This document shows, in pieces, positions 31,541 to 60,785 of a DNA stretch of 64,000 nt; the stretch's first letter is position 1; each line of letters begins with the position of its first letter. The stretch is from Brachionus manjavacas (lineage: Eukaryota > Rotifera > Eurotatoria > Ploima > Brachionidae), in NCBI GenBank assembly GCA_019054805.1, contig JAHQIY010000010.1:3207501-3271500 (forward strand), read 5' to 3'. Below the pieces are notes generated by a model that had not been told where the DNA came from, searched no databases, and saw nothing but the letters and a program-made list of their open reading frames with translations. A program made the position numbers and the translations under genes.

Positions 31541-31840
31541 GAAGTTGACGATCAATTCAAAATATCATTTCAATTCAAAGGGTTTATCATTAAATATTAA
31601 AATAAATCTTTGAATTAGTTTAATAAATTTTAATGTAACATAGTAAACATGCTATAACATGCTAATTACAAAAATAAAATAATAAAAAAAATTTTTTCTC
31701 AATCTATTGAAAAAATCGATCTTAAAAATTGAAATTTATGAACTCATTTTTTGTTAAGTTTATTTTGAAAATTTTTTCTAATTTTCAAAGTTTTAAAGCA
31801 GGCACATTTTTCAAAAAAAATCTTTAATATTTTTCAAACC
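31541..31840. repeat. AT-rich spacer between Penelope and spectrin parts, copy A
   Basis: Starts with GAAGTTGACGATCAATTC and is repeated at 34936-35206 (inverted) and 58686-58985. A diverged relative (GAAGTTGATGATCAATTC) lies in the outer arms of the 2282-9532 palindrome. No coding potential. Confidence 0.6.
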
Positions 31841-33914: not shown

Positions 33915-34935
33915 TTCTTGATATGCAATTCTTTCCTTTATATTGTTCCAGTTAATTGAATGTATTATTATGTGATTTAGACTTTGAGTTTTATGAGAGT
34001 TGATCGAAAGACGAGGCCGCCAAAGACTCGGTCTTCACCTGCTCAAGCTTTTCCTCGATCGGACTCAGCTCCGATTTAAGATCATTGAGCTTTGATTGTG
34101 CCACTTGGACAGAGTCTAAATTTTTGTGCTCCACCTCCACTTGCAGAACACTTATCTTGTCCAGAATGCGCTGGTCAATGTCTTCCAAGTCATGCATCAA
34201 CAAATGAACGTCCAGCGCAGCCACCAACTTTTGCCGGTACTTGTTCACACCCGACTTGATCAGCTCGGATCTGTTGATCAAGCGGTCATTTTTGTCGGCC
34301 ACCATTTGGTAGTCAGTGCGTCCCAATCGCATCAATTTGTTGCCCATATCGATCAATTGTTTTGGCTTGAGCTCATGTGTGGGCGATGTGGTGTCGTCGA
34401 CCTTTTTCAAAAGTTGAGCACAGTGCTCATGGTCGCGATCCACGTAGCCACTCTGAATCATCAACTCTTTGTCCTTGTGTCACTCTTCAAGCTTTTCGAA
34501 CTGGTCATTGAACTCAAGTATGTCCTTGGCTTCGGCAAACTCTTTTTCGCGCTCGTTCACCTCGTAGGCGAGCGCCTGCCACTTTGAGTTCAAATTTTGC
34601 AGAGTGTGCCCTATCAACTGCTCGCTGACCGAGCTGTTTGTGGTCAGCAATGACTGTCGGTTGCTCAGGCTCATTTCGTCAAGCTTTTGGCCAACCCACT
34701 TGCTGAACTTTTTCGTACTTTCTGAGCCATCGGTAAAATGCCATTGTGTTGTCCAGTTGCTTGCGTCGCTCAATTGACGAGTTGATTGAATCATGTTCAA
34801 CAGTTGATTGAACATGAATTTGATGTAAGCTTGTCTCTTTTGTAGTCCTGTTTAAATTCCAAATATTTCTTCTTGTATGCGCGAATGGCGGCTTTGGAGC
34901 GAGAAAAGTGTGCTTTCAAGCTTTAGTGGTTTGAA
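33915..34935 (-). pseudogene. Spectrin-repeat pseudogene fragment, copy 2 (first half)
   Basis: Inverted copy of 31841-32852, with the same in-frame stop at the EE*HKDKEL position. It differs from copy 1 by homopolymer lengths and a base near the junction (AAAGG instead of AAACG). Confidence 0.75.
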
Positions 34936-35206
34936 AAATATTAAAAAATTTTAAAAGATTGAAAATTAGAAAAAATTTCTAAATAAACTTAACAAAAAAT
35001 GAGTTCATAAATTTCAATTTTTAAGATCGATTTTTTCAATAGATTGAGAAAAAATTTTTTTTATTATTTTATTTTTGTAATTAGCATGTTATAGCATGTT
35101 TACTATGTTACATTAAAATTTATTAAACTAATTCAAAGATTTATTTTAATATTTAATGATAAACCCTTTGAATTGAAATGATATTTTGAATTGATCGTCA
35201 ACTTCA
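34936..35206. repeat. AT-rich spacer, copy B (inverted)
   Basis: Inverted copy of 31541-31840, shorter by about 20 bp next to the spectrin part. Confidence 0.6.
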
Positions 35207-36727
35207 AGATGCCGAAAATTATTCAAAAAACTTTGATTTTTCTTTTTTTGTTGATAAATTTTGTGATGGTTTAAAAAGAAACAATAAATATATAAAAAAT
35301 ATACCAATATTAAATGAAAGCATTAAATTAAGATATGAAATTTTTGAAAAAGGAAAAATAAATTAAATAAAAAAATTTTCTTCTAATCTTGAGAGACACA
35401 AAATTAAATCCTTAAAAAGGTATATAAAAGAAAAACTATTTAGAATACTTCAGTGTGATAAGAATGTAGGAACTTTCTTAATAAGCAACGAAGATTTTCT
35501 ACAACTAGCATACGAGCATCTAGATAACACTGAAACATATCTTAAATTAGAATCAGATCCACTTTTAGATATAGAAAAAAAAATAAATTTTGAGTTGATA
35601 TATCTATACGATAAAAGTTATCTTTCTAAAAGACTCTACAATAAATTATTAGTAAAAAACAGTAAAATTGATACATTTAGGAATTTACCCAAAATTCATA
35701 AATGTAAATTTGGTATTAGACCAATAATAAATTGCATTGACCACCCTAGTTCTAAAATGTGCCGGTTTATTGATATATTATTTCAACCTTTTCTGAAAAA
35801 TTGCAATACAATTTTAAAAGACTCTCAAGAGCTCTTACAAATTTGTGAAAATAAAAAATTTGATAGTGAAAAAGTTTTTCTTTATTCATGTGATTTTGAG
35901 TCATTCTATACTAATATTAAACCAGAACATCCCATTTTATTACTCTGTGAGTTTCTTAATAGTTCAAATATATTTGTTGACAATTTTGAGTTCAATTTAA
36001 TATCTTTTAGAACTATTTTAAATTTGATATTTACCTGTGGTATTTTTGAGTTTAATAAAGGATTTTATGTTCAAAAGTTAGGGTTACCGATGGGATGTAA
36101 ATGCGGTCCGTCTGTAGCTAACCTTTATCTTTTTATTTTAGAAAAAACTGGGTTTCTTTAAATAGCTCTTTCATTCTATGCAAAAGATTTATTGATGACA
36201 TTTTTATTGCATCTACTACAGAATTAAATTTGGATGAATTTAAGTCACAATTTCTTTACTTAAAACTAAGTTAACTAAGTTTCAGGAATATGTCGTAGTA
36301 TAGCTAAAAAGGAAAGAAGTGATCTCCTTCCCTATAAAAGAAAGTCACTTATACCTAATTCAGAATTAAAATTTTTTAATTCATTTGATAAAAATATTTC
36401 ATAGCTTAATTTAGTTATTAAAGATTCTTTTCAAAAGATAAAAATGGATTCTAGTTTTTTGAAAAATATGGAATTAAAGGTGGTAAATAAAATTCAGAAA
36501 AATATAGGTTCTTTATTTATATTAAATTTTAAACTTAATAATACTAAAAAATTTTACTCAGAAAATTGTGATATCCTTGGATGTTTGAGCTGTAAATTTA
36601 CCGAAAAAAAGTTTTATTTGAAATATAAAAAACTTTATATTCCATTCTTGAGTGACTCAAATTGTAAATCGATTGGAATAGTTTATATAATTAAATGTAA
36701 TAAATGATAATTATTTTAGAGAGTCAC
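35207..36727 (+). mobile_element. Penelope-like element, copy B
   Basis: This copy keeps more of the 5' coding part: ERHKIKSLKRYIKEK, ILQCDKNVGTFLISNEDFL and AYEHLDNTETYLKLE precede LPKIHK. The DKN-G...AYEHL-TY pattern is the N-terminal block of Penelope-type reverse transcriptases. RT motifs and the start of the GIY-YIG domain (GIVYIIKCNK) follow, then the LTR element at 36728. It is not intact. Confidence 0.8.
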
Positions 36728-39203
36728 AGAGGGTCACATCCCTCCACCGCTTGCTATTGGCCCCCGCGCTCGTCGTCTTTCCTGGCGTCTTGGAGGGGAA
36801 GGGCTAGAGGATCACATCTCTCCGCCGCATGCTGCTGGCCCCCGCGCTCGTCGTCCGAGGGGTCGTCGTCGGGCAGGTTCTCGGGCCCGGAGAACTCCTC
36901 GGCGTCCTCCTTCTGCTGGGGAAGTCCTAATTCTTCTTCCATTTTGCGGCGTCTCACCCCGCACACCCTATTTACTTCAAACTTCAATCTTGACCCATGA
37001 AAGACCATGCACGTCCAGTCGAGAATGGCCTCATTATCTTCTAGGCGGGTGAGCGCCACAAATGCGTGTCCCGGCTTCATCCGGTTGTTCGACAGGAGGT
37101 GGCATACCAATATTTGCGAGAGCCCTTCCTCGCGGACCCTATCGTTGAGCCGGGTCTTTAACGAGTCCCGGCTATTTATTACACTTGGCACGTTTTTGAC
37201 GATCAAGTCGTATATCAATTCCATGATGTTTGAGTTGCAAAAAATAAAATAAAACAAGTAGTGTTTGTAACTTTAATTGTTAGAAAGAGAAAAGAAAATT
37301 CCTAGCTTGACTCGTGCTTCTTGCACAAGTAAACACTCCTGGAATAGTGAAAATTTGTCTTGTTTCATTTGACTTAACTGTATTTTAACTGTCTAATTTG
37401 TGAGATGTGTTTAACTGTATAAAAAAAAAAACTGTCTTAAAAAAAAAAAAAAACAACTTCAAAACTTGCAATTTCTGGACCAAATCCATAAAATAAATAT
37501 TTGGACTTTCATTAAACGAAACAAATAAAAAATAAAAAATAGTTTGTGTAAAAAGGGTTAAATAGAGTCCTAGATTTTGGTGGTTAACTTGCCGTTAGAC
37601 CCTTGCTCTTTTGTAAGCTTTTCCCCTTTTTTGTGTATCCGCTTGTGTGAGCCTAATGCTCCAGCTGTGCTTGTTACGAAATCACACTCATCGCACCTAT
37701 AGTTTTCTTTCACTGCTCCTACTGGTCCTGTCGTTTTCTCTGGTGTACCGTACATGGTTTTTTCTAAGATCTCTTCTTCATTGTGTGGAACTTCTGGATT
37801 ACTTTCCCCTTCCAAATTTTCCTGCCCAAGTGTTTCCAACTGTGGAATAATTACCGTTTCATCCTCAGGTGGATTTTCTTCTATGTTACTGTTCGCTTGT
37901 GCCTGCTGGTTTTGGTTCGTATTTTGCGTAGCTCCATTTTCGATTTCAACAACCTCTGACCTTGTCTCTTCTCTTCCGGCTTGTTCGCTTGCTGTTCTCC
38001 CTTGTTTCTTCTTATTCCTGTGGATGGCAATGATTTTCTTGTTTTCTCTCCATTCGCTACCTGAATCTGAACTGATACTTTCCATCATTTTAGCGTGATC
38101 TCTTGCCACGTAACGCGTCATCCTATTGTAGTGCACAATTTGTTTTTTTTCTGTTTTCACGTCACGGACCTCAAAATTAACGTCACCCAAGATACTCGTA
38201 ACTTCAAAAGGGCCTAAAAATTTTGGAACGAAACTTCTGACTTGTCCTACTTTTTACCTATTGTTCGACAACATTATCAGATCGCCTACTTTAAACACTT
38301 GGTTGTTCCTCACCGCTTTGTCGTATTGCTTCTTTTGCTTTTGTTGCGCCTGTTCGATGTTTTCTGAAACTTTTTCTGGATTTCTTCGCGCGACGCTACT
38401 GGCTCACTAGTTTCAATTTGCAATTTTCTGTCGCACTTGTTCATCAGTGTTGTTCCAAAGATTATTTGATTTGGGCTATAACTTGTTGACTCGTGTGTAG
38501 CGTTATTATATGCAAACGTAACCTGGCCTAATATTTCGTCCCAGTCGTCGTGACTTTCCGCCACGCTTTAGCTCAATGTTTGTTTAATTGTTTTGATGGT
38601 GCGTTCCGCCAAACCATTACACTGCGGGTAATATGCCGTAGTGCGTATTTTCTTGATTCCCTGTTCTCTGCAAAACTTGTCGAATTCTCTTGCTTCAAAA
38701 TTCCGGCCTTGGTCGCTCAAAATCGCGAATGGCACCCCAAAAATTTCCAACGCTCTTCTTTTCACAAAACTAATGGTCTTGTCTGCTGTCGTCCTCTGAG
38801 TCTCACTTGTGATGCAATACTTTGACACATAATCAACTAGTAGAAAAAAATGTGTGTTTCCGTTTTTCGTTAATTTCAACGGTCCCGCTATTTCTATCCC
38901 ACAAGATCCCACGGAAATTGCACTTTAATTGTAATTAATGGACTCCTGTTCTGTAGATTCTTTGGTTTAGTCAACTGGCATTTTTCACAACTCTTGCAAT
39001 AATCATAAATTTCGGACTTCATCTAAGGCCACAACGACGGGAAATGGTTTTGTAGGTTTTTTCGTAACTAAGATGCCCTGCTGAAATCTCGTCATGGTAT
39101 AACTGGCAAACCAACTTGCGTAGTTGTTTGGGAACTAAGATGGAATTTTCTCTTTGAAAGTTCTTTAATTTCATTTAATTTCTTAAAACATCATTTTCTA
39201 TAA
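36728..39203 (-). mobile_element. Ty3/gypsy-type LTR element fossil, copy B (partial)
   Basis: Inverted partial copy: gag N-terminal part (36.73-37.25 kb), LTR-like non-coding stretch (37.26-37.57), C2H2-finger tail and integrase (37.57-39.2). It lacks RT and RNase H. Broken, with several interruptions. It is nearly identical to copies A and C, so it arose by duplication of the locus, not by a separate insertion. Confidence 0.8.
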
Positions 39204-39310
39204 ATATTAATAATTATATCTATAAATTGCTAATCAATAATTAGAAATTACGATTATTTTTTAAAAAATATTTATTTTAAAAAACTTTCGAATAGAAATT
39301 AAATTGTCAC

Positions 39311-39340
39311 GACGCGTTTCGACCAAATGGTCTTCTTCAG
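39311..39340 (-). ncRNA. Hammerhead ribozyme-like core, copy B
   Basis: The minus strand reads CTGAAGAAGACCATTTGGTC then GAAACGCGTC, matching the type I hammerhead plan CUGANGA, stem II, GAAA, very short palindromic stem III (ACGCGU) and cleavage-site GUC. One extra A between CUGAAGA and stem II departs from consensus. Minimal hammerheads with such stem III are known from Penelope-like elements, where they are thought to act as dimers. Activity is unproven. Confidence 0.55.
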
Positions 39341-39403
39341 GTTTTAAGACTGAAAGAAAGAATAAAATTTAATAATAAAAAGTCAGCTAGTCCATTCTCT
39401 TGG

Positions 39404-39571
39404 CTAAACTGTAATTTGAGATACGTTTTGAGAGTTTAAGATTAGAATTTTTTTTATTATTTCTGAGGTAAAATGAGATTCCAAAATAACAATGTCCTGA
39501 TTGAAAGACTTCAATTTATTCTCCATAGTCGGTTTGTTTAGATACAAATCTTGATAGATAACAAAAGCCAT
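39404..39571 (-). CDS. Unassigned 55-residue ORF, copy B
   Basis: Starts MAFVIYQDLYLNKPTMENKL and ends in ...VSQITV. No recognised domain. Mirror of 54316-54483. It may be a fragment of a longer retroelement protein rather than a gene. Confidence 0.25.
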   Translation of the reverse strand: MAFVIYQDLYLNKPTMENKLKSFNQDIVILESHFTSEIIKKILILNSQNVSQITV

Positions 39572-39750
39572 TCTGTTAAATTTGTTTGTAATTTAAACGA
39601 AAGTTTGGAAAAAACGTACAGCTGATCAAAGTTGAACAACTGAAGTGCATTTAAAACGCTGGTCATTCGACACTTTGGTTAAAGACCTAATATTTGCCTA
39701 ATTAGATTGTTTTGAGATATATTTAGGTAATTTCTTGTTGATTTATCTTT

Positions 39751-40777
39751 AATATTTTTCAAACCACTAAAGCTTGAAAGCACACTTTTCTCGCTCCAAA
39801 GCCGCCATTCGCGCATACAAGAAGAAATATTTGGAATTTAAACAGGACTACAAAAGAGACAAGCTTACATCAAATTCATGTTCAATCAACTGTTGAACAT
39901 GATTCAATCAACTCGTCAATTGAGCGACGCAAGCAACTGGACAACACAATGGCATTTTACCGATGGCTCAGAAAGTACGAAGAGTTCAGCAAGTGGGTTG
40001 GCCAAAAGCTTGACGAAATGAGCCTGAGCAACCGACAGTCATTGCTGACCACAAACAGCTCGGTCAGCGAGCAGTTGATAGGGCACACTCTGCAAAATTT
40101 GAACTCAAAGTGGCAGGCGCTCGCCTACGAGGTGAACGAGCGCGAAAAAGAGTTTGCCGAAGCCAAGGACATACTTGAGTTCAATGACCAGTTCGAAAAG
40201 CTTGAAGAGTGACACAAGGACAAAGAGTTGATGATTCAGAGTGGCTACGTGGATCGCGACCATGAGCACTGTGCTCAACTTTTGAAAAAGGTCGACGACA
40301 CCACATCGCCCACACATGAGCTCAAGCCAAAACAATTGATCGATATGGGCAACAAATTGATGCGATTGGGACGCACTGACTACCAAATGGTGGCCGACAA
40401 AAATGACCGCTTGATCAACAGATCCGAGCTGATCAAGTCGGGTGTGAACAAGTACCGGCAAAAGTTGGTGGCTGCGCTGGACGTTCATTTGTTGATGCAT
40501 GACTTGGAAGACATTGACCAGCGCATTCTGGACAAGATAAGTGTTCTGCAAGTGGAGGTGGAGCACAAAAATTTAGACTCTGTCCAAGTGGCACAATCAA
40601 AGCTCAATGATCTTAAATCGGAGCTGAGTCCGATCGAGGAAAAGCTTGAGCAGGTGAAGACCGAGTCTTTGGCGGCCTCGTCTTTCGATCAACTCTCATA
40701 AAACTCAAAGTCTAAATCACATAATAATACATTCAATTAACTGGAACAATATAAAGGAAAGAATTGCATATCAAGAA
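39751..40777 (+). pseudogene. Spectrin-repeat pseudogene fragment, copy 3 (first half)
   Basis: Copy of 31841-32852, cut at CATATCAAGAA where the LINE begins. It carries GAAGAG where copy 1 has GAAAAG (Glu for Lys in the KYEKFSK stretch), a variant shared with its mirror copy at 53114-54140. Same stop at EE*HKDKEL. Confidence 0.75.
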
Positions 40778-42965
40778 AGGGTAGACATAGGGCTAAAAAA
40801 ATTAGAATCGCTTTTCTTAAACCTAATAAGTGAGAAAAACACTGAAAAAATCAAGCTTACACTAACGAACTCTTTAAACGAGATTTGATCAGTCTTGATC
40901 AATGCAACTATCAAAACTAGAAACGAATTTAACAACAAAAAACAAAAAAAGAAACGAATCGGGGACTTAAAATTTAACCATTGTGGAATGACAAAATGAA
41001 TGAGCTCCACAATAAGGTAATAGAGAAATATAGACTTCTCAAAGACTCAGGATTTTCCAATGAACTCGAAAAAGAACACAGAGATGCCAAACGCGAATTT
41101 AGATTAAGAAAACGTTTAAATATTAAACTTAAGCGAAATAAAGCATTAAGAAAACTTGACCATTTGTTTCTTCTTGACAAAGACTCGTTTTGGAAGAAGA
41201 TTAGAGCCTTAAATAGGCAAAAAATTAAAGTAGACATTGACACAGCCATAATCAAGGATGAGTACCATAAACAATTTAACCAAAGAATTGACGCCAATCG
41301 AGATGTAGAAAATTTAAGCAAACTTCAAGTGGATCTATTCATTAAAAGAAAAACTGGTGTGGAATTTGTATACCACTTAAATACTCAAGTTGTAAAAAAA
41401 ACCATTGAAGAGTTGCCAAATGGGAAGAATAATGGACTCAGTGAAGTAACTTATGAGATGCTTAAATATTGCTCAAATAATCGACTCGTCGAGTATATAA
41501 CAGTACTTTTCGAAAAAATGATACAGTTTCAACAGATGTCTTACTTATTTAACATTTCAATCTTAAAACCGATCGTCAAAGACGCCAAAAAGTCAAACAA
41601 AAACCTCAATAACTTACGCCCGATAGCAGTATCCGACGCAATTTCAAATATCTTTGAAAACATTATGTTAAACGAAATTGAAAAAAATTACAGAGACAAT
41701 AATAAACAGTTTGGGCTTAAAAAACAATCGTCTTGTAGCCACGCTATTTCGGTTCTCAAACAAGCCATAAAACTGAGCAACTTTCTTCAAAAACGGCTTT
41801 ACGTGTGCGCAATTGCGCTTCAAAAGCGTTTGATAAAGTCAACAGGACTAACCTCTGGGCAAAACTGATAAGAAAAAATATAGATCCAGCAATAACTATG
41901 GCAATTATTAAGAACTATGATGAATCATTAATGATTATATATAATGGAAGTGAGTTTTCTAGCCCATTTAAAACAACCCTTCTTGTACGCCAAGGCGGAA
42001 CTATGTCCCCAAAACTCTTCTCCACTTATGTTGACGAACTGATTACCATAACCGAGTCTTTAGACCCGGGACTCAGGCTAAACGATGAGAATAAAATTGA
42101 TATCATAGTATACGCCGATGACATATTACTATTAAGTACATCCAAATACGGTCTAAAAACACAACTAGAGGCTATTGAAGAATATGGAAATAAGTATGAA
42201 ATAAAGTTCAACTCTGATTAAACGAGCTTTATAATTTTTAACCAAGCAAAAACTCGTAGTTGTCAAGAAAAAAGAGCTGACACTTGGCAAGCGGATGTCA
42301 TGTTGAATGGAATAGCGATCAATCAAGTGAAGTCCATGAAATACTTGGGTGTACATATTAGCGACCACGACAAGAACGAAGTTCAAATTGATAATCGTAA
42401 AAAGTCAGCAATAACCGCTCTGGCAAGGCTGAACAAATTAGGCTTCACCACGGAGAATATACACCCGAACATGAAGGGGCACTTATACAACACATACGTT
42501 CGACCCGTACTCTACTATGGACTTGAAAATTACAATCTAAACATGTGCGAAAAAACCTGTTAAAAGAATAGAGGGTAACTTGATAAAAACAATGAATGGG
42601 GTCCGAACTCGATGTAGGTCAAGTCATCTCATGAACGCGCTAAGAATTGAACAAAGTAACCAAAGACTTGAATAACTTAAATGTGACTTTTTTATACGAC
42701 TAAATCAAAATATATACACAAAAACAATACTGGATAATGTATTTGCCTTAAATATCAAAGGGGACTTAACAAGAGAGGTGATGGAAAACTTGCCAAACAA
42801 GTGAAAATGATTTGGTGTCGTCTTGCTCGATTCACAAGTACAAAATAAAACAGAGATTAAAGCGAACGAAGACAACCAAACAGTTACGGAATTACGTAAA
42901 ATTTTCAATTTAAAAAATAGGTCAATTATAGCAAATAAACTATATGAAATAATTAAATTTTGACT
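40778..42965 (+). mobile_element. 5'-truncated LINE, copy 1 (reverse transcriptase)
   Basis: Begins within ORF2 downstream of the endonuclease (GLKKLESLFLNLISEKNTEK), then WNDKMNELHNKVIEKYRLL. RT motifs follow: NNLRPIAVSD (about 41610), KAFDKVNR (41827), RQGGTMSPKLFS (41990) and the catalytic YADDILLLS (42110), then the MKYLGVHI block and the C-terminal domain to a stop near 42963. Frame changes near 41810-41870 and a stop near 42220 show it is dead. The clade looks CR1/Jockey-like but I cannot place it firmly. Its 5' end abuts the spectrin fragment. Confidence 0.8.
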
Positions 42966-43189
42966 CAATTTTTATATTATATATATTTTTTTCATTTATT
43001 GATCAGTCTTCTACTAATTTTTTTATTTTTCTAAAGTGTATTATTCTCTTTTTAAATAATCTAATTTATCTTGAGAACCTGAAAACTTAAAATTTTTGAA
43101 ATTAAAATTTTTCTTTTTTTGTTATTTTGTAAAAACAGTACGCTTTATTTAACAGTGTACTGTGACGTGGTCAGAAACGGCCCTTGCTA
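42966..43189. other. LINE 3' UTR and AT-rich sequence
   Basis: No coding sense. Includes CAGTAC...GTACTG, a small inverted repeat (43138-43164) just before the pogo derivative. Confidence 0.4.
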
Positions 43190-43703
43190 AAGAATAAATA
43201 ATAACGAGTTTCGATATAACGAAAACTTGATATAACGAGCTTGAACAAAAGAAATTTTTTCACACTTTTTATATAAAAAAATAAAAATAAAACAATTAAC
43301 TTATCTTCATGAATAACTATAAATCACCAGAAAACATTTCCTATCTAATTGTTTATAAAAAATGTCCAATCTTAATCAAAAAAAAAAGAAAGTCACTTGA
43401 AACAAAAGTTGAAATAATAAAAAAGATTTTTTTTTGAATAAAAACCAAGATTTCTCAAAAAAAGTTGATTTTTTGTTTAATATTGATAATGTTGTGATTG
43501 AAAAATGTAATACCAAACAAACATCTATTAAAGATTTTGTAAAAAAACAATAATTTTGTATTTTTATTAATTTTTTATTTATTTTTTTACCAATAAACAT
43601 TTTGAAAAAAAAAATTTTTTGCCCATCTTTTTCAATGCAATTTCGATATAACGAGCAGTGAAATTTTCGCCCAACTTGCTCGTTATATCGAGGATTGACT
43701 GTA
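43190..43703 (+). mobile_element. Internally deleted pogo/Tigger element, copy 1
   Basis: The right end is CGTTATATCGAGGATTGACTG followed by TA; the left side repeats CGATATAACGA and TTGATATAACGAGC in inverse sense. Between them lie a transposase start (MSNLNQKK..., then KRKSLETKVEIIKKI, the N-terminal helix-turn-helix of pogo/CENP-B type transposases) and a transposase end (CNTKQTSIKDFVKKQ, the typical C-terminus), with the DDE catalytic core missing. It is a non-autonomous deletion derivative. In this copy a homopolymer run breaks the frame that is open in the copy at 50345-50533. Confidence 0.7.
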
Positions 43704-45628
43704 TTTAAATTTTTTAAAAAGTATAATTTTTCAAATTCAAATTGGAAATTTTATTTTTTTCAAATATATAAAATTATCTTAAAACTTAAAATCTTAATTA
43801 AAAAATATTCAAATACTAAATAAATAAATCTTCAATAAAAGATAAAGGAAATATCGACAGCTTTCCAGAAGAGCCAGTTTGAAAGCTTTCAATATTCAAT
43901 AATTTCAACTAAATTATCAAAAATTTAGTAAAAAAAATGAAATTAAATTTGAATTTAATTCATATATTACATTGTTGAATTTTTTTATTAAAAATTTAAT
44001 CTCAATTTTTAAATTTTGTATTTCATTTTAATTAAATTGAATTAATGAATCTATATTTACAATTTTTTTTGTTTAATATATTTTAATAAAAACATCTTGA
44101 TATGGTGAATTAAAATGAAAATTTATTGGAATCATTTTTCAAATTAACCCTAAATTTTTTTTAAGATTTTTTTTAATTTCTTTCCCAAAATATACCCTTA
44201 AATTAGCCAAAACCACCTTTAAATCCATATTCCAAAATTAATTTTATAATTTTTAAAATTAGGAAAAAGTTTCGGGACTACCCGGTTATGTTATCAGCTG
44301 ATAACACATTATGTTATCAAAGTGGTCACCCCCGGTTTTGTTATCATTTAGAGGACGATTAAAATCAATCTCAAAATTTTGAATAAAATACTCCAATAAA
44401 ATAGTTATCCATAAAAAATTAATCAACACCAAATTAATAAGAAATCCAATATTTTTAACTTATTGAAAAATTAAAAAAAAAACGCTATTTAATTTAAGAC
44501 AAATTTGTTTATTTATCTTTGAAATTTTTTAATTAATTCAATGAGTATAAAATTAAGAAATGTAAATAATGTATTTTTAAATTAAAACCAGATTATTTTT
44601 CCTAATTTTTAAAGCCTATCAATATTTAAAATTTTTAAATCTATTATGACTTAAATAAATTTACCTATTTGATTTTTGATTCGATTTATTTAATTTTTTC
44701 AATCTAAAGGAGAATTGGCTCGAGATAGTCAATAATATTTGATAAAAAAATTAAATAATAATATTAAATTATTAAATAAAGTGTTAATTAACTTTTTAAT
44801 ATATAATCTTAATTATTGGGAATTTTTTTTAATATCTAGGGTATTTTATTCGAAATTAGAGGTATTCGAACTAAATAAGCAAACATTATGATTTTTTTAT
44901 TCTTGATAATTGTTAAATATTAAATGTAAAATTAAAAAAAATAAAAATAAAAATTAATAAATAATTCTGACTGATTATTTTATGGTTATAAAATTTTATA
45001 ATTTAAATGCAAAATTGATGTGATATTGATAATTTTGTTTGTGACTAAAAAGATTGAAATAAAAATGGAAGATTTTTTCTCAAGTCATGACGGACTTTCT
45101 ACTGTTAAAAAATGTTTTATTTTGTCAGTCTCAATTCACTGCAGTCTTTTTTAGTTTTTATATTTTAGTTTTTTTTAAATGATTCTATAAGTCCATTACT
45201 TTTTAGAAATTTTGAATTAACAATTAAATTAATATTTAAAAGTTTAAAATTTTTCTTGATTATAAAATTCAACGCTTTTCTTAACTTTTGACAAACTTTT
45301 GTCTTGGATCTAATTCAATTTGGCTGACTTAAGAATAAAAAAAATATCAGAAAAAATTTAATGATTGAAATTAATTAAAGCTAAATAATAATAAAAATTT
45401 TCGATATTGATTATTAACTTTAATTTGGCAATTCTTTTCTTTCTTGTTTTTGCTCAAAAAAATTTCTTTAACTTTGGCTCACGTTCTAAAATATTCCCAA
45501 ATCAATCCAAAATTCCTCCATCGAAAGAATCGTAGAAAAATCAATCAATTAAATTTTTAAAAAAATCTAATTTAAAAAATAATATGAATAAAAGAATTGA
45601 CTAACTATTTAATAAAAAAATAAATTAA
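43704..45628. other. Non-coding AT-rich tail of the repeat unit (inverted copy)
   Basis: Contains the GTTATC cluster (44275-44350) and a LINE-like tail hairpin (44700-44725, GGAGAATTGGCTCGAG). Otherwise no genes. Repeated at 48276-50196 and 60786-62709. Confidence 0.6.
44275..44350. repeat. GTTATC/GATAAC cluster with two direct CCGGTTnTGTTATC boxes
   Basis: CCCGGTTATGTTATCAGCTG and, about 55 bp on, CCCGGTTTTGTTATC, with TTATCAGCTGATAA (a perfect 14-bp palindrome) and another ATGTTATC between. This GC-containing island stands out in an AT desert. It may be the terminus of a DNA transposon or a protein-binding array. Copies: 49555-49630 and 62065-62140. Confidence 0.45.
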
Positions 45629-46936: not shown

Positions 46937-46966
46937 ATCCACGTAGCCACTCATGGTCGCGATCCA
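46937..46966. other. Centre of the 26-kb palindrome
   Basis: Only about 30 bp separate the mirror arms. The 18-bp phrase TCATGGTCGCGATCCACG occurs at 46926-46943 and again at 46951-46968, so the turn-around contains a short templated duplication in addition to the inversion. Confidence 0.85.
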
Positions 46967-48275: not shown

Positions 48276-50196
48276 ATTTATTTTTTTTATTAAATAGTTA
48301 GTCAATTCTTTTATTCATATTATTTTTTTTAAATTAGATTTTTTTTAAAAATTTAATTGATTGATTTTTCTACGATTCTTTCGATGGAGGAATTTTGGAT
48401 TGATTTGGGAATATTTTAGAACGTGAGCCAAAGTTAAAGAAATTTTTTTGAGCAAAAACAAGAAAGAAAAGAATTGCCAAATTAAAGTTAATAATCAATA
48501 TCGAAAATTTTTATTATTATTTAGCTTTAATTAATTTCAATCATTAAATTTTTTCTGATATTTTTTTTATTCTTAAGTCAGCCAAATTGAATTAGATCCA
48601 AGACAAAAGTTTGTCAAAAGTTAAGAAAAGCGTTGAATTTTATAATCAAGAAAAATTTTAAACTTTTAAATATTAATTTAATTGTTAATTCAAAATTTCT
48701 AAAAAGTAATGGACTTATAGAATCATTTAAAAAAAACTAAAATATAAAAACTAAAAAAAGACTGCAGTGAATTGAGACTGACAAAATAAAACATTTTTTA
48801 ACAGTAGAAAGTCCGTCATGACTTGAGAAAAAATCTTCCATTTTTATTTCAATCTTTTAGTCACAAACAAAATTATCAATATCACATCAATTTTGCATTT
48901 AAATTATAAAATTTTATAACCATAAAATAATCAGTCAGAATTATTTATTAATTTTTATTTTTATTTTTTTTAATTTTACATTTAATATTTAACAATTATC
49001 AAGAATAAAAAAATCATAATGTTTGCTTATTTAGTTCGAATACCTCTAATTTCGAATAAAATACCCTAGATATTAAAAAAAATTCCCAATAATTAAGATT
49101 ATATATTAAAAAGTTAATTAACACTTTATTTAATAATTTAATATTATTATTTAATTTTTTATCAAATATTATTGACTATCTCGAGCCAATTCTCCTTTAG
49201 ATTGAAAAAATTAAATAAATCGAATCAAAAATCAAATAGGTAAATTTATTTAAGTCATAATAGATTTAAAAATTTTAAATATTGATAGGCTTTAAAAATT
49301 AGGAAAAATAATCTGGTTTTAATTTAAAAATACATTATTTACATTTCTTAATTTTATACTCATTGAATTAATTAAAAAATTTCAAAGATAAATAAACAAA
49401 TTTGTCTTAAATTAAATAGCGTTTTTTTTTAATTTTTCAATAAGTTAAAAATATTGGATTTCTTATTAATTTGGTGTTGATTAATTTTTTATGGATAACT
49501 ATTTTATTGGAGTATTTTATTCAAAATTTTGAGATTGATTTTAATCGTCCTCTAAATGATAACAAAACCGGGGTGACCACTTTGATAACATAATGTGTTA
49601 TCAGCTGATAACATAACCGGGTAGTCCCGAAACTTTTTCCTAATTTTAAAAATTATAAAATTAATTCAGGAATATGGATTTAAAGGTAGTTTTGGCTAAT
49701 TTAAGGGTATATTTTGGGAAAGAAATTAAAAAAATCTTAAAAAAAATTAAGGGTTAATTTGAAAAATTATTCCAATAAATTTTCATTTTAATTCACCATA
49801 TCAAGATGTTTTTATTAAAATATATTAAACAAAAAAATTGTAAATATAGATTCATTAATTCAATTTAATTAAAATGAAATACAAAATTTAAAAATTGAGA
49901 TTAAATTTTTAATAAAAAAATTCAACAATGTAATATATGAATTAAATTCAAATTTAATTTCATTTTTTTACTAAATTTTTGATAATTTAGTTGAAATTAT
50001 TGAATATTGAAAGCTTTCAAACTGGCTCTTCTGGAAAGCTGTCGATATTTCCTTTATCTTTTATTGAAGATTTATTTATTTAGTATTTGAATATTTTTTA
50101 ATTAAGATTTTAAGTTTTAAGATAATTTTATATATTTGAAAAAAATAAAATTTCCAATTTGAATTTGAAAAATTATACTTTTTAAAAATTTAAATA
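48276..50196. other. Non-coding AT-rich tail of the repeat unit
   Basis: Mirror of 43704-45628, with the GTTATC cluster at 49555-49630. At 49668-49690 this copy has three substitutions not found in the other two copies. Confidence 0.6.
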
Positions 50197-50710
50197 CAGT
50201 CAATCCTCGATATAACGAGCAAGTTGGGCGAAAATTTCACTGCTCGTTATATCGAAATTGCATTGAAAAAGATGGGCAAAAAATTTTTTTTTTCAAAATG
50301 TTTATTGGTAAAAAAATAAATAAAAAATTAATAAAAATACAAAATTATTGTTTTTTTACAAAATCTTTAATAGATGTTTGTTTGGTATTACATTTTTCAA
50401 TCACAACATTATCAATATTAAACAAAAAATCAACTTTTTTTGAGAAATCTTGGTTTTTATTCAAAAAAATCTTTTTTATTATTTCAACTTTTGTTTCAAG
50501 TGACTTTCTTTTTTTTTGATTAAGATTGGACATTTTTTATAAACAATTAGATAGGAAATGTTTTCTGGTGATTTATAGTTATTCATGAAGATAAGTTAAT
50601 TGTTTTATTTTTATTTTTTTATATAAAAAGTGTGAAAAAATTTCTTTTGTTCAAGCTCGTTATATCAAGTTTTCGTTATATCGAAACTCGTTATTATTTA
50701 TTCTTTAGCA
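50197..50710 (-). mobile_element. Internally deleted pogo/Tigger element, copy 2
   Basis: Starts CAGTCAATCCTCGATATAAC just after TA. The minus strand has the open 62-codon frame (50345-50533) that fuses the transposase N-terminal helix-turn-helix region with its C-terminal tail. Confidence 0.7.
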
Positions 50711-50927
50711 AGGGCCGTTTCTGACCACGTCACAGTACACTGTTAAATAAAGCGTACTGTTTTTACAAAATAACAAAAAAGAAAAATTTTAATTTCAAAA
50801 ATTTTAAGTTTTCAGGTTCTCAAGATAAATTAGATTATTTAAAAAGAGAATAATACACTTTAGAAAAATAAAAAAATTAGTAGAAGACTGATCAATAAAT
50901 GAAAAAAATATATAATATAAAAATTGA

Positions 50928-53113
50928 GTCAAAATTTAATTATTTCATATAGTTTATTTGCTATAATTGACCTATTTTTTAAATTGAAAATTTTACGTAA
51001 TTCCGTAACTGTTTGGTTGTCTTCGTTCGCTTTAATCTCTGTTTTATTTTGTACTTGTGAATCGAGCAAGACGACACCAAATCATTTTCACTTGTTTGGC
51101 AAGTTTTCCATCACCTCTCTTGTTAAGTCCCCTTTGATATTTAAGGCAAATACATTATCCAGTATTGTTTTTGTGTATATATTTTGATTTAGTCGTATAA
51201 AAAAGTCACATTTAAGTTATTCAAGTCTTTGGTTACTTTGTTCAATTCTTAGCGCGTTCATGAGATGACTTGACCTACATCGAGTTCGGACCCCATTCAT
51301 TGTTTTTATCAAGTTACCCTCTATTCTTTTAACAGGTTTTTTTCGCACATGTTTAGATTGTAATTTTCAAGTCCATAGTAGAGTACGGGTCGAACGTATG
51401 TGTTGTATAAGTGCCCCTTCATGTTCGGGTGTATATTCTCCGTGGTGAAGCCTAATTTGTTCAGCCTTGCCAGAGCGGTTATTGCTGACTTTTTACGATT
51501 ATCAATTTGAACTTCGTTCTTGTCGTGGTCGCTAATATGTACACCCAAGTATTTCATGGACTTCACTTGATTGATCGCTATTCCATTCAACATGACATCC
51601 GCTTGCCAAGTGTCAGCTCTTTTTCTTGACAACTACGAGTTTTTGCTTGGTTAAAAATTATAAAGCTCGTTTAATCAGAGTTGAACTTTATTTCATACTT
51701 ATTTCCATATTCTTCAATAGCCTCTAGTTGTGTTTTTAGACCGTATTTGGATGTACTTAATAGTAATATGTCATCGGCGTATACTATGATATCAATTTTA
51801 TTCTCATCGTTTAGCCTGAGTCCCGGGTCTAAAGACTCGGTTATGGTAATCAGTTCGTCAACATAAGTGGAGAAGAGTTTTGGGGACATAGTTCCGCCTT
51901 GGCGTACAAGAAGGGTTGTTTTAAATGGGCTAGAAAACTCACTTCCATTATATATAATCATTAATGATTCATCATAGTTCTTAATAATTGCCATAGTTAT
52001 TGCTGGATCTATATTTTTTCTTATCAGTTTTGCCCAGAGGTTAGTCCTGTTGACTTTATCAAACGCTTTTGAAGCGCAATTGCGCACACGTAAAGCCGTT
52101 TTTGAAGAAAGTTGCTCAGTTTTATGGCTTGTTTGAGAACCGAAATAGCGTGGCTACAAGACGATTGTTTTTTAAGCCCAAACTGTTTATTATTGTCTCT
52201 GTAATTTTTTTCAATTTCGTTTAACATAATGTTTTCAAAGATATTTGAAATTGCGTCGGATACTGCTATCGGGCGTAAGTTATTGAGGTTTTTGTTTGAC
52301 TTTTTGGCGTCTTTGACGATCGGTTTTAAGATTGAAATGTTAAATAAGTAAGACATCTGTTGAAACTGTATCATTTTTTCGAAAAGTACTGTTATATACT
52401 CGACGAGTCGATTATTTGAGCAATATTTAAGCATCTCATAAGTTACTTCACTGAGTCCATTATTCTTCCCATTTGGCAACTCTTCAATGGTTTTTTACAA
52501 CTTGAGTATTTAAGTGGTATACAAATTCCACACCAGTTTTTCTTTTAATGAATAGATCCACTTGAAGTTTGCTTAAATTTTCTACATCTCGATTGGCGTC
52601 AATTCTTTGGTTAAATTGTTTATGGTACTCATCCTTGATTATGGCTGTGTCAATGTCTACTTTAATTTTTTGCCTATTTAAGGCTCTAATCTTCTTCCAA
52701 AACGAGTCTTTGTCAAGAAGAAACAAATGGTCAAGTTTTCTTAATGCTTTATTTCGCTTAAGTTTAATATTTAAACGTTTTCTTAATCTAAATTCGCGTT
52801 TGGCATCTCTGTGTTCTTTTTCGAGTTCATTGGAAAATCCTGAGTCTTTGAGAAGTCTATATTTCTCTATTACCTTATTGTGGAGCTCATTCATTTTGTC
52901 ATTCCACAATGGTTAAATTTTAAGTCCCCGATTCGTTTCTTTTTTTGTTTTTTGTTGTTAAATTCGTTTCTAGTTTTGATAGTTGCATTGATCAAGACTG
53001 ATCAAATCTCGTTTAAAGAGTTCGTTAGTGTAAGCTTGATTTTTCAGTGTTTTTCTCACTTATTAGGTTTAAGAAAAGCGATTCTAATTTTTTAGCCCTA
53101 TGTCTACCCTTTC
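50928..53113 (-). mobile_element. 5'-truncated LINE, copy 2 (reverse transcriptase)
   Basis: Inverted copy of 40778-42965 with the same RT motifs (YADDILLLS near 51770) and the same 5' truncation joined to a spectrin fragment at 53113/53114. The frame is broken at an extra position near 52480 through a homopolymer difference. Confidence 0.8.
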
Positions 53114-54140
53114 TTGATATGCAATTCTTTCCTTTATATTGTTCCAGTTAATTGAATGTATTATTATGTGATTTAGACTTTGAGTTTTATGAGAGTTGAT
53201 CGAAAGACGAGGCCGCCAAAGACTCGGTCTTCACCTGCTCAAGCTTTTCCTCGATCGGACTCAGCTCCGATTTAAGATCATTGAGCTTTGATTGTGCCAC
53301 TTGGACAGAGTCTAAATTTTTGTGCTCCACCTCCACTTGCAGAACACTTATCTTGTCCAGAATGCGCTGGTCAATGTCTTCCAAGTCATGCATCAACAAA
53401 TGAACGTCCAGCGCAGCCACCAACTTTGCCGGTACTTGTTCACACCCGACTTGATCAGCTCGGATCTGTTGATCAAGCGGTCATTTTTGTCGGCCACCAT
53501 TTGGTAGTCAGTGCGTCCCAATCGCATCAATTTGTTGCCCATATCGATCAATTGTTTTGGCTTGAGCTCATGTGTGGGCGATGTGGTGTCGTCGACCTTT
53601 TTCAAAAGTTGAGCACAGTGCTCATGGTCGCGATCCACGTAGCCACTCTGAATCATCAACTCTTTGTCCTTGTGTCACTCTTCAAGCTTTTCGAACTGGT
53701 CATTGAACTCAAGTATGTCCTTGGCTTCGGCAAACTCTTTTTCGCGCTCGTTCACCTCGTAGGCGAGCGCCTGCCACTTTGAGTTCAAATTTTGCAGAGT
53801 GTGCCCTATCAACTGCTCGCTGACCGAGCTGTTTGTGGTCAGCAATGACTGTCGGTTGCTCAGGCTCATTTCGTCAAGCTTTTGGCCAACCCACTTGCTG
53901 AACTCTTCGTACTTTCTGAGCCATCGGTAAAATGCCATTGTGTTGTCCAGTTGCTTGCGTCGCTCAATTGACGAGTTGATTGAATCATGTTCAACAGTTG
54001 ATTGAACATGAATTTGATGTAAGCTTGTCTCTTTTGTAGTCCTGTTTAAATTCCAAATATTTCTTCTTGTATGCGCGAATGGCGGCTTTGGAGCGAGAAA
54101 AGTGTGCTTTCAAGCTTTAGTGGTTTGAAAAATATTAAAG
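53114..54140 (-). pseudogene. Spectrin-repeat pseudogene fragment, copy 6 (first half)
   Basis: Mirror of copy 3, with the same GAAGAG variant and one base lost near 53430. Same stop at EE*HKDKEL. Confidence 0.75.
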
Positions 54141-54315
54141 ATAAATCAACAAGAAATTACCTAAATATATCTCAAAACAATCTAATTAGGCAAATATTAG
54201 GTCTTTAACCAAAGTGTCGAATGACCAGCGTTTTAAATGCACTTCAGTTGTTCAACTTTGATCAGCTGTACGTTTTTTCCAAACTTTCGTTTAAATTACA
54301 AACAAATTTAACAGA

Positions 54316-54483
54316 ATGGCTTTTGTTATCTATCAAGATTTGTATCTAAACAAACCGACTATGGAGAATAAATTGAAGTCTTTCAATCAGGACATTGTTA
54401 TTTTGGAATCTCATTTTACCTCAGAAATAATAAAAAAAATTCTAATCTTAAACTCTCAAAACGTATCTCAAATTACAGTTTAG
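54316..54483 (+). CDS. Unassigned 55-residue ORF, copy C
   Basis: MAFVIYQDLYLNKPTMENKL start, followed by a helical, mixed-charge stretch and VSQITV end. I recognise no domain. It sits about 60 bp upstream of the hammerhead-like core, in the same orientation. Confidence 0.25.
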   Translation: MAFVIYQDLYLNKPTMENKLKSFNQDIVILESHFTSEIIKKILILNSQNVSQITV

Positions 54484-54546
54484 CCAAGAGAATGGACTAG
54501 CTGACTTTTTATTATTAAATTTTATTCTTTCTTTCAGTCTTAAAAC

Positions 54547-54576
54547 CTGAAGAAGACCATTTGGTCGAAACGCGTC
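54547..54576 (+). ncRNA. Hammerhead ribozyme-like core, copy C
   Basis: CTGAAGA, GACC-ATTT-GGTC stem II, GAAA, ACGCGT stem III and GTC, identical to the copy at 39311-39340. Flanks (AAAAC before, GTGAC after) can form only a short interrupted stem I. Confidence 0.55.
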
Positions 54577-54685
54577 GTGACAATTTAATTTCTATTCGAA
54601 AGTTTTTTAAAATAAATATTTTTTAAAAAATAATCGTAATTTCTAATTATTGATTAGCAATTTATAGATATTATTATTAATATTT

Positions 54686-57163
54686 ATAGAAAATGATGTT
54701 TTAAGAAATTAAATGAAATTAAAGAACTTTCAAAGAGAAAATTCCATCTTAGTTCCCAAACAACTACGCAAGTTGGTTTGCCAGTTATACCATGACGAGA
54801 TTTCAGCAGGGCATCTTAGTTACGAAAAAACCTACAAAACCATTTCCCGTCGTTGTGGCCTTAGATGAAGTCCGAAATTTATGATTATTGCAAGAGTTGT
54901 GAAAAATGCCAGTTGACTAAACCAAAGAATCTACAGAACAGGAGTCCATTAATTACAATTAAAGTGCAATTTCCGTGGGATCTTGTGGGATAGAAATAGC
55001 GGGACCGTTGAAATTAACGAAAAACGGAAACACACATTTTTTTCTACTAGTTGATTATGTGTCAAAGTATTGCATCACAAGTGAGACTCAGAGGACGACA
55101 GCAGACAAGACCATTAGTTTTGTGAAAAGAAGAGCGTTGGAAATTTTTGGGGTGCCATTCGCGATTTTGAGCGACCAAGGCCGGAATTTTGAAGCAAGAG
55201 AATTCGACAAGTTTTGCAGAGAACAGGGAATCAAGAAAATACGCACTACGGCATATTACCCGCAGTGTAATGGTTTGGCGGAACGCACCATCAAAACAAT
55301 TAAACAAACATTGAGCTAAAGCGTGGCGGAAAGTCACGACGACTGGGACGAAATATTAGGCCAGGTTACGTTTGCATATAATAACGCTACACACGAGTCA
55401 ACAAGTTATAGCCCAAATCAAATAATCTTTGGAACAACACTGATGAACAAGTGCGACAGAAAATTGCAAATTGAAACTAGTGAGCCAGTAGCGTCGCGCG
55501 AAGAAATCCAGAAAAAAGTTTCAGAAAACATCGAACAGGCGCAACAAAAGCAAAAGAAGCAATACGACAAAGCGGTGAGGAACAACCAAGTGTTTAAAGT
55601 AGGCGATCTGATAATGTTGTCGAACAATAGGTAAAAAGTAGGACAAGTCAGAAGTTTCGTTCCAAAATTTTTAGGCCCTTTTGAAGTTACGAGTATCTTG
55701 GGTGACGTTAATTTTGAGGTCCGTGACGTGAAAACAGAAAAAAAACAAATTGTGCACTACAATAGGATGACGCGTTACGTGGCAAGAGATCACGCTAAAA
55801 TGATGGAAAGTATCAGTTCAGATTCAGGTAGCGAATGGAGAGAAAACAAGAAAATCATTGCCATCCACAGGAATAAGAAGAAACAAGGGAGAACAGCAAG
55901 CGAACAAGCCGGAAGAGAAGAGACAAGGTCAGAGGTTGTTGAAATCGAAAATGGAGCTACGCAAAATACGAACCAAAACCAGCAGGCACAAGCGAACAGT
56001 AACATAGAAGAAAATCCACCTGAGGATGAAACGGTAATTATTCCACAGTTGGAAACACTTGGGCAGGAAAATTTGGAAGGGGAAAGTAATCCAGAAGTTC
56101 CACACAATGAAGAAGAGATCTTAGAAAAAACCATGTACGGTACACCAGAGAAAACGACAGGACCAGTAGGAGCAGTGAAAGAAAACTATAGGTGCGATGA
56201 GTGTGATTTCGTAACAAGCACAGCTGGAGCATTAGGCTCACACAAGCGGATACACAAAAAAGGGGAAAAGCTTACAAAAGAGCAAGGGTCTAACGGCAAG
56301 TTAACCACCAAAATCTAGGACTCTATTTAACCCTTTTTACACAAACTATTTTTTTTATTTTTTATTTGTTTCGTTTAATGAAAGTCCAAATATTTATTTT
56401 ATGGATTTGGTCCAGAAATTGCAAGTTTTGAAGTTGTTTTTTTTTTTTTTTAAGACAGTTTTTTTTTTTTATACAGTTAAACACATCTCACAAATTAGAC
56501 AGTTAAAATACAGTTAAGTCAAATGAAACAAGACAAATTTTCACTATTCCAGGAGTGTTTACTTGTGCAAGAAGCACGAGTCAAGCTAGGAATTTTCTTT
56601 TCTCTTTCTAACAATTAAAGTTACAAACACTACTTGTTTTATTTTATTTTTTGCAACTCAAACATCATGGAATTGATATACGACTTGATCGTCAAAAACG
56701 TGCCAAGTGTAATAAATAGCCGGGACTCGTTAAAGACCCGGCTCAACGATAGGGTCCGCGAGGAAGGGCTCTCGCAAATATTGGTATGCCACCTCCTGTC
56801 GAACAACCGGATGAAGCCGGGACACGCATTTGTGGCGCTCACCCGCCTAGAAGATAATGAGGCCATGCTCGACTGGACGGGCATGGTCTTTCATGGGTCA
56901 AGATTGAAGTTTGAAGTAAATAGGGTGTGCGGGGTGAGACGCCGCAAAATGGAAGAAGAATTAGGACTTCCCCAGCAGAAGGAGGACGCCGAGGAGTTCT
57001 CCGGGCCCGAGAACCTGCCCGACGACGACCCCTCGGACGACGAGCGCGGGGGCCAGCAGCATGCGGCGGAGAGATGTGATCCTCTAGCCCTTCCCCTCCA
57101 AGACGCCAGGAAAGACGACGAGCGCGGGGGCCAATAGCAAGCGGTGGAGGGATGTGACCCTCT
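54686..57163 (+). mobile_element. Ty3/gypsy-type LTR element fossil, copy C (partial)
   Basis: Parts: integrase (54.7-55.65 kb), tail with C2H2 finger (55.7-56.32), LTR-like non-coding stretch (56.33-56.65), GC-rich gag N-terminus (56.66-57.16). It lacks RT and RNase H. Broken, with a few interruptions. Two substitutions in the gag part separate it from copies A and B. Confidence 0.8.
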
Positions 57164-58685
57164 GTGACTCTCTAAAATAATTATCATTTATTACATTTAA
57201 TTATATAAACTATTCCAATCGATTTACAATTTGAGTCACTCAAGAATGGAATATAAAGTTTTTTATATTTCAAATAAAACTTTTTTTCGGTAAATTTACA
57301 GCTCAAACATCCAAGGATATCACAATTTTCTGAGTAAAATTTTTTAGTATTATTAAGTTTAAAATTTAATATAAATAAAGAACCTATATTTTTCTGAATT
57401 TTATTTACCACCTTTAATTCCATATTTTTCAAAAAACTAGAATCCATTTTTATCTTTTGAAAAGAATCTTTAATAACTAAATTAAGCTATGAAATATTTT
57501 TATCAAATGAATTAAAAAATTTTAATTCTGAATTAGGTATAAGTGACTTTCTTTTATAGGGAAGGAGATCACTTCTTTCCTTTTTAGCTATACTACGACA
57601 TATTCCTGAAACTTAGTTAACTTAGTTTTAAGTAAAGAAATTGTGACTTAAATTCATCCAAATTTAATTCTGTAGTAGATGCAATAAAAATGTCATCAAT
57701 AAATCTTTTGCATAGAATGAAAGAGCTATTTAAAGAAACCCAGTTTTTTCTAAAATAAAAAAGATAAAGGTTAGCTACAGACGGACCGCATTTACATCCC
57801 ATCGGTAACCCTAACTTTTGAACATAAAATCCTTTATTAAACTCAAAAATACCACAGGTAAATATCAAATTTAAAATAGTTCTAAAAGATATTAAATTGA
57901 ACTCAAAATTGTCAACAAATATATTTGAACTATTAAGAAACTCACAGAGTAATAAAATGGGATGTTCTGGTTTAATATTAGTATAGAATGACTCAAAATC
58001 ACATGAATAAAGAAAAACTTTTTCACTATCAAATTTTTTATTTTCACAAATTTGTAAGAGCTCTTGAGAGTCTTTTAAAATTGTATTGCAATTTTTCAGA
58101 AAAGGTTGAAATAATATATCAATAAACCGGCACATTTTAGAACTAGGGTGGTCAATGCAATTTATTATTGGTCTAATACCAAATTTACATTTATGAATTT
58201 TGGGTAAATTCCTAAATGTATCAATTTTACTGTTTTTTACTAATAATTTATTGTAGAGTCTTTTAGAAAGATAACTTTTATCGTATAGATATATCAACTC
58301 AAAATTTATTTTTTTTTCTATATCTAAAAGTGGATCTGATTCTAATTTAAGATATGTTTCAGTGTTATCTAGATGCTCGTATGCTAGTTGTAGAAAATCT
58401 TCGTTGCTTATTAAGAAAGTTCCTACATTCTTATCACACTGAAGTATTCTAAATAGTTTTTCTTTTATATACCTTTTTAAGGATTTAATTTTGTGTCTCT
58501 CAAGATTAGAAGAAAATTTTTTATTTAATTTATTTTTCCTTTTTCAAAAATTTCATATCTTAATTTAATGCTTTCATTTAATATTGGTATATTTTTTATA
58601 TATTTATTGTTTCTTTTTAAACCATCACAAAATTTATCAACAAAAAAAGAAAAATCAAAGTTTTTTGAATAATTTTCGGCATCTT
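57164..58685 (-). mobile_element. Penelope-like element, copy C
   Basis: Inverted relative of copy B with the same extent: the 5' block (near 58300-58650), RT motifs and GIVYIIKC end at the LTR border. Not intact. Confidence 0.8.
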
Positions 58686-58985
58686 GAAGTTGACGATCAA
58701 TTCAAAATATCATTTCAATTCAAAGGGTTTATCATTAAATATTAAAATAAATCTTTGAATTAGTTTAATAAATTTTAATGTAACATAGTAAACATGCTAT
58801 AACATGCTAATTACAAAAATAAAATAATAAAAAAAATTTTTTCTCAATCTATTGAAAAAATCGATCTTAAAAATTGAAATTTATGAACTCATTTTTTGTT
58901 AAGTTTATTTTGAAAATTTTTTCTAATTTTCAAAGTTTTAAAGCAGGCACATTTTTCAAAAAAATCTTTAATATTTTTCAAACCA
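58686..58985. repeat. AT-rich spacer, copy C
   Basis: Direct copy of 31541-31840. Confidence 0.6.
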
Positions 58986-60785
58986 CTAAAGCTTGAAAGC
59001 ACACTTTTCTCGCTCCAAAGCCGCCATTCGCGCATACAAGAAGAAATATTTGGAATTTAAACAGGACTACAAAAGAGACAAGCTTACATCAAATTCATGT
59101 TCAATCAACTGTTGAACATGATTCAATCAACTCGTCAATTGAGCGACGCAAGCAACTGGACAACACAATGGCATTTTACCGATGGCTCAGAAAGTACGAA
59201 AAGTTCAGCAAGTGGGTTGGCCAAAAGCTTGACGAAATGAGCCTGAGCAACCGACAGTCATTGCTGACCACAAACAGCTCGGTCAGCGAGCAGTTGATAG
59301 GGCACACTCTGCAAAATTTGAACTCAAAGTGGCAGGCGCTCGCCTACGAGGTGAACGAGCGCGAAAAAGAGTTTGCCGAAGCCAAGGACATACTTGAGTT
59401 CAATGACCAGTTCGAAAAGCTTGAAGAGTGACACAAGGACAAAGAGTTGATGATTCAGAGTGGCTACGTGGATCGCGACCATGAGCACTGTGCTCAACTT
59501 TTGAAAAAGGTCGACGACACCACATCGCCCACACATGAGCTCAAGCCAAAACAATTGATCGATATGGGCAACAAATTGATGCGATTGGGACGCACTGACT
59601 ACCAAATGGTGGCCGACAAAAATGACCGCTTGATCAACAGATCCGAGCTGATCAAGTCGGGTGTGAACAAGTACCGGCAAAAGTTGGTGGCTGCGCTGGA
59701 CGTTCATTTGTTGATGCATGACTTGGAAGACATTGACCAGCGCATTCTGGACAAGATAAGTGTTCTGCAAGTGGAGGTGGAGCACAAAAATTTAGACTCT
59801 GTCCAAGTGGCACAATCAAAGCTCAATGATCTTAAATCGGAGCTGAGTCCGATCGAGGAAAAGCTTGAGCAGGTGAAGACCGAGTCTTTGGCGGCCTCGT
59901 CTTTCGATCAACTCTCATAAAACTCAAAGTCTAAATCACATAATAATACATTCAATTAACTGGAACAATATAAACGAAAGAATTGCATATCAAGAATGGT
60001 CGAGTCCAGGGAGTTGAAGTGTTGGATTCGGGACATGGGAAACAGAATTGAGCAGCAAAGTGAGCCTAGCAGTGTTGGCGAGGCCGAGACTGGCATAAAT
60101 TTGCACCAAGAAAGAATGACTGAAATTGAGAGCAAGGCTTACAGGTTCATTGGTCTGAGTGACATGGCCAACTAGTTGATTGAGCGCAAGTCAACCGAGT
60201 CCAATTATCAGCTGGTGCAGTGGCAAATATCCAATTTTATCAAAGACATTGGTCAATTAAAAGAGCAGCTTGATTTTATGATCGATTTGAATAAAGTGGG
60301 ACAGAGATGAGTGGAGGACATGCACAAAGAGGCGAACCAACTGTTGGCCAGACACCAGACCACGCTGTACTCGTTGAGCACATGGTCGTCGCAAATAATT
60401 GCCAACATAAACGAACACCTTAAGGATCTTGACTTTCAATGGAACGGACTAAAGACTGCCGCAGAGACAAAGAGGAAATTTTTGGAAGATGCGTTCGAGT
60501 ATGTCTCGTTTACCAGGTTTTCCGATGACTTGTTTGCTTGGTTCGATGAAGTAGAGTCACAGTTGGTCAATGACGATCATGACATATCCTCGTGCAAAAT
60601 GCTCTTGTTGAGACACGAGAATTTGAGCAAACAAATTGAGGCACAATGTGACAAAATTTCCGAGCTTAACTCGTATATGTTGACAGATAAGGATAACTTT
60701 ATGCTGGCTGATATACAGCAAATGGCTGGTCAAGTCAAGCAGCGGTTCAATGAGCTCAAAGAGCCTAGCAAGATTAGGTAATTAA
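58986..60785 (+). pseudogene. Spectrin-repeat pseudogene fragment, copy 7 (both halves)
   Basis: Direct copy of copy 1 with the same three stops and the same AG|GTAATT end. Together with copy 1 it is the longest version in the window. Confidence 0.75.

Follow-up and report, generated by a model that had tools for sequence, protein, structure and literature searches.

A 64,000-nucleotide stretch of the Brachionus manjavacas assembly (contig JAHQIY010000010.1; hereafter, the window) contains a near-perfect palindrome of about 26 kb, and we think it most likely, with a probability of roughly 0.65, that this structure is an in-vitro fold-back that was built into the assembly. When we compared the window to itself with BLAST, 33915-59999 matched 59996-33912 in the inverted orientation across 26,145 columns, with 99.415% identity. 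A previous analysis of the letters alone (the sequence-only reading) had reported such a palindrome at 33915-59990, and the self-BLAST bears this out. A chance origin is excluded.

The self-BLAST match includes 33 mismatches and 74 gap openings, with every difference between the arms counted twice. In a global alignment of the two 13-kb arms, we found 12 substitutions, which fall into about five clusters, and 35 gaps. Almost all of the gaps (30/35) are differences in the length of a homopolymer. The other five are the two ends of the alignment (3 and 16 nt), adjacent gaps of 12 and 8 nt, and a single TA unit. So many gaps for so few substitutions is the opposite of what would be expected under ordinary divergence, and the excess of homopolymer-length differences looks like long-read error.

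Table 1. Coordinates of the palindromes, repeated segments, and joints within the window.
Feature	Position	Strand	Details
Second palindrome (separate)	2279-9536		Arms 2279-5735 and 6081-9536; spacer ~345 bp
Main palindrome, left arm	33915-46952	+	Self-BLAST and global arm alignment
Main palindrome, right arm	46967-59999	-	Self-BLAST and global arm alignment
Direct tandem, period 12,507 bp	46967-64000	+	46967-51489 is repeated at 59474-64000; window ends inside the tandem
Segment a, copy 1	27973-31541	+	3' part of Ty3-type element and second reverse transcriptase
Segment a, other copies	35639-39206 (-); 54681-58253 (+)		Self-BLAST
Segment A, copy 1 (A1)	31539-33835	+	Spectrin pseudogene fragment
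Segment A, full or partial copies, left arm side	33915-35207 (-; A2); 39745-40777 (+); 45433-46952 (-)		
Segment A, full or partial copies, right side	46967-48472 (+); 53111-54142 (-); 58684-60980 (+)		
Joint of A1 with inverted piece of LINE-containing segment	33835-33915	-	1-bp overlap
Segment X, between a and A	39206-39745	+	Inverted copy at 54142-54681
LINE-containing segment, AT-rich flank	40857-45433	+	Reverse transcriptase match at 41805-42221
LINE-containing segment, other copies	48472-53033 (inverted); 60980-64000		Second of these is part of a third copy
Tip hairpin	46951-46977		11-nt stems 46951-46961 and 46967-46977; loop ATCCA at 46962-46966
Slip-back duplication in left arm	46926-46950	+	25 extra nt adjoining the tip; 3-bp CTC overlap

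"Palindrome" is too mild a name for this region, as inverted and tandem copies form a tangle. Reading from left to right, outside sequence runs to 27973 and is followed by segment a (+), segment A (+), the inverted piece of the LINE-containing segment, and A (-). Then come a piece of ~430 bp that has no counterpart in copy 1, a (-), X, A (+), 80 bp and the LINE-containing segment up to 45433, A (-), and the centre. The other half is the mirror image of this, and past its last A (+) the LINE-containing segment begins again; consequently, self-BLAST shows the right half repeating in direct orientation every 12,507 bp. Neither this direct repeat nor the further copies at 27973-33835, which were also found by self-BLAST, were mentioned in the sequence-only reading. 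The first copy of segment a lacks 433 bp that are found in the other two copies, with a 3-bp overlap (TTG) at the joint. The spectrin stretch around 32330-32852 is present seven times in the window. We dropped a boundary at 42404 as a candidate joint because it is an effect of the end of the window at 64000.

The centre of the main palindrome is a 5-nt loop that is closed by a perfect hairpin. Once the 25 extra nucleotides of the left arm are removed, the first 208 nt of the arms, counted from the tip, pair without a mismatch. Followed rightwards, the reversed segment continues as far as GCCACTC; there it slips back by 25 nt with a 3-bp overlap (CTC), 16 nt are copied a second time, and the strand then flips around the loop with 2 bp (CG) in common. 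If folded as single-stranded DNA, 46880-47010 has z = -14.8, and none of 200 shuffled sequences were as stable. The sequence-only reading had described a 30-bp centre with an 18-bp templated duplication. The turn-around is indeed there, although it is better described by the loop, the hairpin, and the 25 extra nucleotides. Both positions of the 18-mer (46926-46943 and 46951-46968) are right, but they are just the visible part of the 25-nt slip, and the 18-mer is ordinary repeat sequence. The window has seven occurrences of it, against an expectation of 0 from 100 shuffles, and it is found at the five further places because it belongs to the repeated segment. As a template-switch scar, the centre must have been present in some DNA molecule or read, and it is not a gap in scaffolding. 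At four joints, both parents can be seen; the overlaps are 2, 3, and 3 bp at three of these and 1 bp at the fourth (33835).

The window contains another palindrome, 24 kb from the main one, that the sequence-only reading had missed. Its arms are ~3.45 kb each and contain no inner substitutions: all 12 of the inner differences are in the lengths of homopolymers, and all other differences are confined to the ends of the arms. We looked by eye for a target-site duplication at the outer ends of this second palindrome and saw none at 11 offsets. That two separate, near-identical palindromes are present within 64 kb suggests a process that is common to the assembly or to the genome.

The copies of repeat A (~1 kb) are ~99.8% alike and are present in both orientations, and two single-base differences define two types of A. 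At the first site, A1, A2, and A7 have an A, while A3 and A6 have a G (A4 and A5 stop short of this site). At the second site, A1, A4, A5, and A7 have a C, while A2, A3, and A6 have a G. A2 combines both types and is a mosaic. Some changes are private to one copy. Compared to A1 and A7, A2 has a deletion of ~22 bp and nearby substitutions, at 34930-35000. Similarly, within ~100 bp of the AT-rich flank, the copy at 48466-51489 differs by five private substitutions from the two other copies, which agree with each other there. If these private changes are not consensus errors, they show true divergence between real copies.

As to coding content, Pfam identified Ty3-type reverse transcriptase, RNase H, and integrase domains at 26651-28610, a second reverse transcriptase at 30905-31555, a piece of an endonuclease at 17907-18527, and a gene with an MSP domain at 9784-10545. 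We take the second reverse transcriptase to be Penelope-like, and the reverse transcriptase match in the LINE-containing segment is presumably LINE-like. The endonuclease piece lies within 15291-20207, which has inverted ends of 394 bp (15291-15684 and 19814-20207, 98% alike). Segment A carries spectrin repeats, and by eye, there is a stretch resembling a LINE protein between two spectrin parts. The spectrin frame (fragment 31820-33835) has three in-frame stops (TGA at 32285, TAG at 33029, and TGA at 33164), which look like former tryptophan codons. We considered a changed code with TGA as tryptophan, as two of the three stops are TGA, but the third is TAG, and a pseudogene accounts more simply for a spectrin piece that is truncated and interrupted. 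We consider segment A to be a fragment of a spectrin pseudogene.

Judging from the retroelement, spectrin, and MSP-domain matches, the window looks like animal nuclear DNA, and we set aside an origin from bacteria, phages, plasmids, or organelles. Megablast of 33000-47000 against phage and plasmid collections gave no match, and there were no exact matches for a 28-mer in viral contigs or for a 20-mer in genome contigs. Neither Rfam (at the gathering score) nor ARAGORN found a match in the window. About 150 bp, at 96-98% identity, are shared between 25274-25428, just before the Ty3-type element, and 39227-39381, within segment X. Segment X contains a hammerhead-like string; we do not claim a hammerhead there, as Rfam reported none up to E = 5 in 25000-64000. 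The same region has six weak matches to mir-2001 (including 43629-43698, 50200-50269, and 62713-62782), with a best score of 27.2 bits against a cutoff of 74, which are probably due to chance.

We propose that a copying strand slipped back by 25 nt and then folded on itself at the 5-nt loop, and that this most likely happened outside of the organism, during strand-displacement whole-genome amplification or library preparation. The assembler would then have added sequence of the same locus, in which fragments of retroelements and of the spectrin pseudogene are clustered, to either side of the fold-back molecule, and switches through repeat A would have given rise to the tandem period as well as to the mosaic joints. 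The sequence itself shows the structure, the anatomy of the junction, how nearly identical the copies are, and that homopolymer lengths make up most of their differences. We infer both the in-vitro setting and the assembler's part from the balance of substitutions and gaps between the arms; the second palindrome of like quality; the short loop, overlap, and slip at the centre; and the mosaic A2, which would be expected if a switch took place within a repeat. The sequence-only reading had attributed the fold-back and its short copied segment to template switching during break-induced or fork-stalled replication. Template switching does fit the junction, but we favour an in-vitro or assembly product over replication in the animal as the more probable setting. 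That reading had left open whether the palindrome is young, maintained, or an assembly product, and we lean towards the last of these or an in-vitro origin.

Published artefacts resemble this structure. In one study of multiple displacement amplification, 85% of the chimeras were inverted, and most joints had overlaps of 2-21 nt (PMC1855051). That study found 495 chimeras in 10.88 Mb, or by our arithmetic, about one per 22 kb. In Arabidopsis, palindromes were reported in 45.8% of the amplified reads and 0.5% of the control reads (PMC6218980). For five amplified tardigrades, 25.6-38.5% of the reads were palindromic, some structures had multiple inversions, and such multi-inversion reads from microscopic animals disturbed assembly (PMC13265396). 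As in these chimeras, the window has segments that are joined in inverted orientation (by self-BLAST), overlaps of at least 2 nt at three of four joints, several inversions in one molecule, and near-identical arms. In contrast to them, our arms differ by substitutions and a small deletion as well as by what may be sequencing error. Also, those analyses treat reads, while ours is an assembled contig. Library preparation yields fold-back reads too (PMC12870357). In the Breakinator paper, these turn to the opposite strand within 200 bp and are near-perfect mirrors, as is the case here with the 5-nt loop, but the 25-nt slip at the tip sets our structure apart from them. A further criterion for such reads is that the turn lies no more than 10% away from the read's midpoint. 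The 2013 assembly of Adineta vaga is another animal assembly with mirrored blocks in its contigs; its palindromes are blocks of homologous genes, whereas ours are nearly identical fragments of retroelements and a pseudogene.

Some observations argue against an artefact. These are the clustered substitutions between the arms, the private changes in A2 and in the AT-rich flank, the overlap of just 1 bp at 33835, and the presence of several joints in one contig, as random artefacts should seldom outlast assembly at good depth. The main rival explanation, which we consider less likely, is that the cluster of spectrin-pseudogene and retroelement fragments is a genuine and very recent palindrome with almost no spacer, which runs into a tandem array with a 12.5-kb period and lies close to a second palindrome. 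In this case, an end that had broken or stalled would have slipped, folded at the 5-nt loop, and been extended (a fold-back inversion), and recombination between the A repeats would then yield the tandem and the mosaic A2. Consistent with this, substitution clusters and the small deletion are private to single copies, and two consistent SNPs mark two types of A by their neighbours. Also, fold-back inversions in human and yeast cells involve a hairpin-primed turn with a short overlap, and human junctions have inverted overlaps of 2-8 bp (PMC3907307). On the other hand, the spacers of all 21 sequenced human fold-backs are 766-70,466 bp (PMC3907307), and in yeast, short loops (medians of 3-4 nt) come mainly from mre11 or sae2 mutants, while the median is otherwise 36 nt, and the stems are at least 4 bp (PMC7467729). 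Because the human spacers are so large, and because the median loop is 36 nt in yeast with Mre11 and Sae2 intact, a turn with a 5-nt loop and 2 bp of overlap is unusual for normal repair. The second palindrome, with its ~345-bp spacer, does not share the short loop. A nearby palindrome of equal quality and the predominance of homopolymer-length differences both weigh against real amplification.

Two other explanations seem very improbable. The region is filled with pieces of retroelements, and there are separate inverted ends at 15291-20207, so the palindrome might be a mobile element whose inverted ends are very long. However, the main palindrome terminates within the repeated segment A, the slip and flip at its centre fall inside a pseudogene, and inspection of 11 offsets around the second palindrome revealed no target-site duplication. 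Equally remote is the idea that the arms are two haplotypes of one locus that the assembler placed end to end, with no fold-back molecule involved. Misassembly has been named as a source of palindromes that are not real (PMC7953838), and the palindromes reported for the assembly of one bdelloid rotifer could not be found in a closely related one (PMC5916493). But there is little haplotype-like divergence between our arms, and the slip and flip form a molecule-level joint that lies inside a segment rather than at a boundary.

If the palindrome is an artefact, as we favour, then copy numbers and claims of palindromes from this assembly need to be checked at the level of reads. If instead it is real, it would be an animal palindrome with a short loop that formed only recently, and it would offer a natural way to study how such structures escape repair; the lineage would then tolerate hairpins with short loops, such as Mre11 and Sae2 keep in check in yeast.
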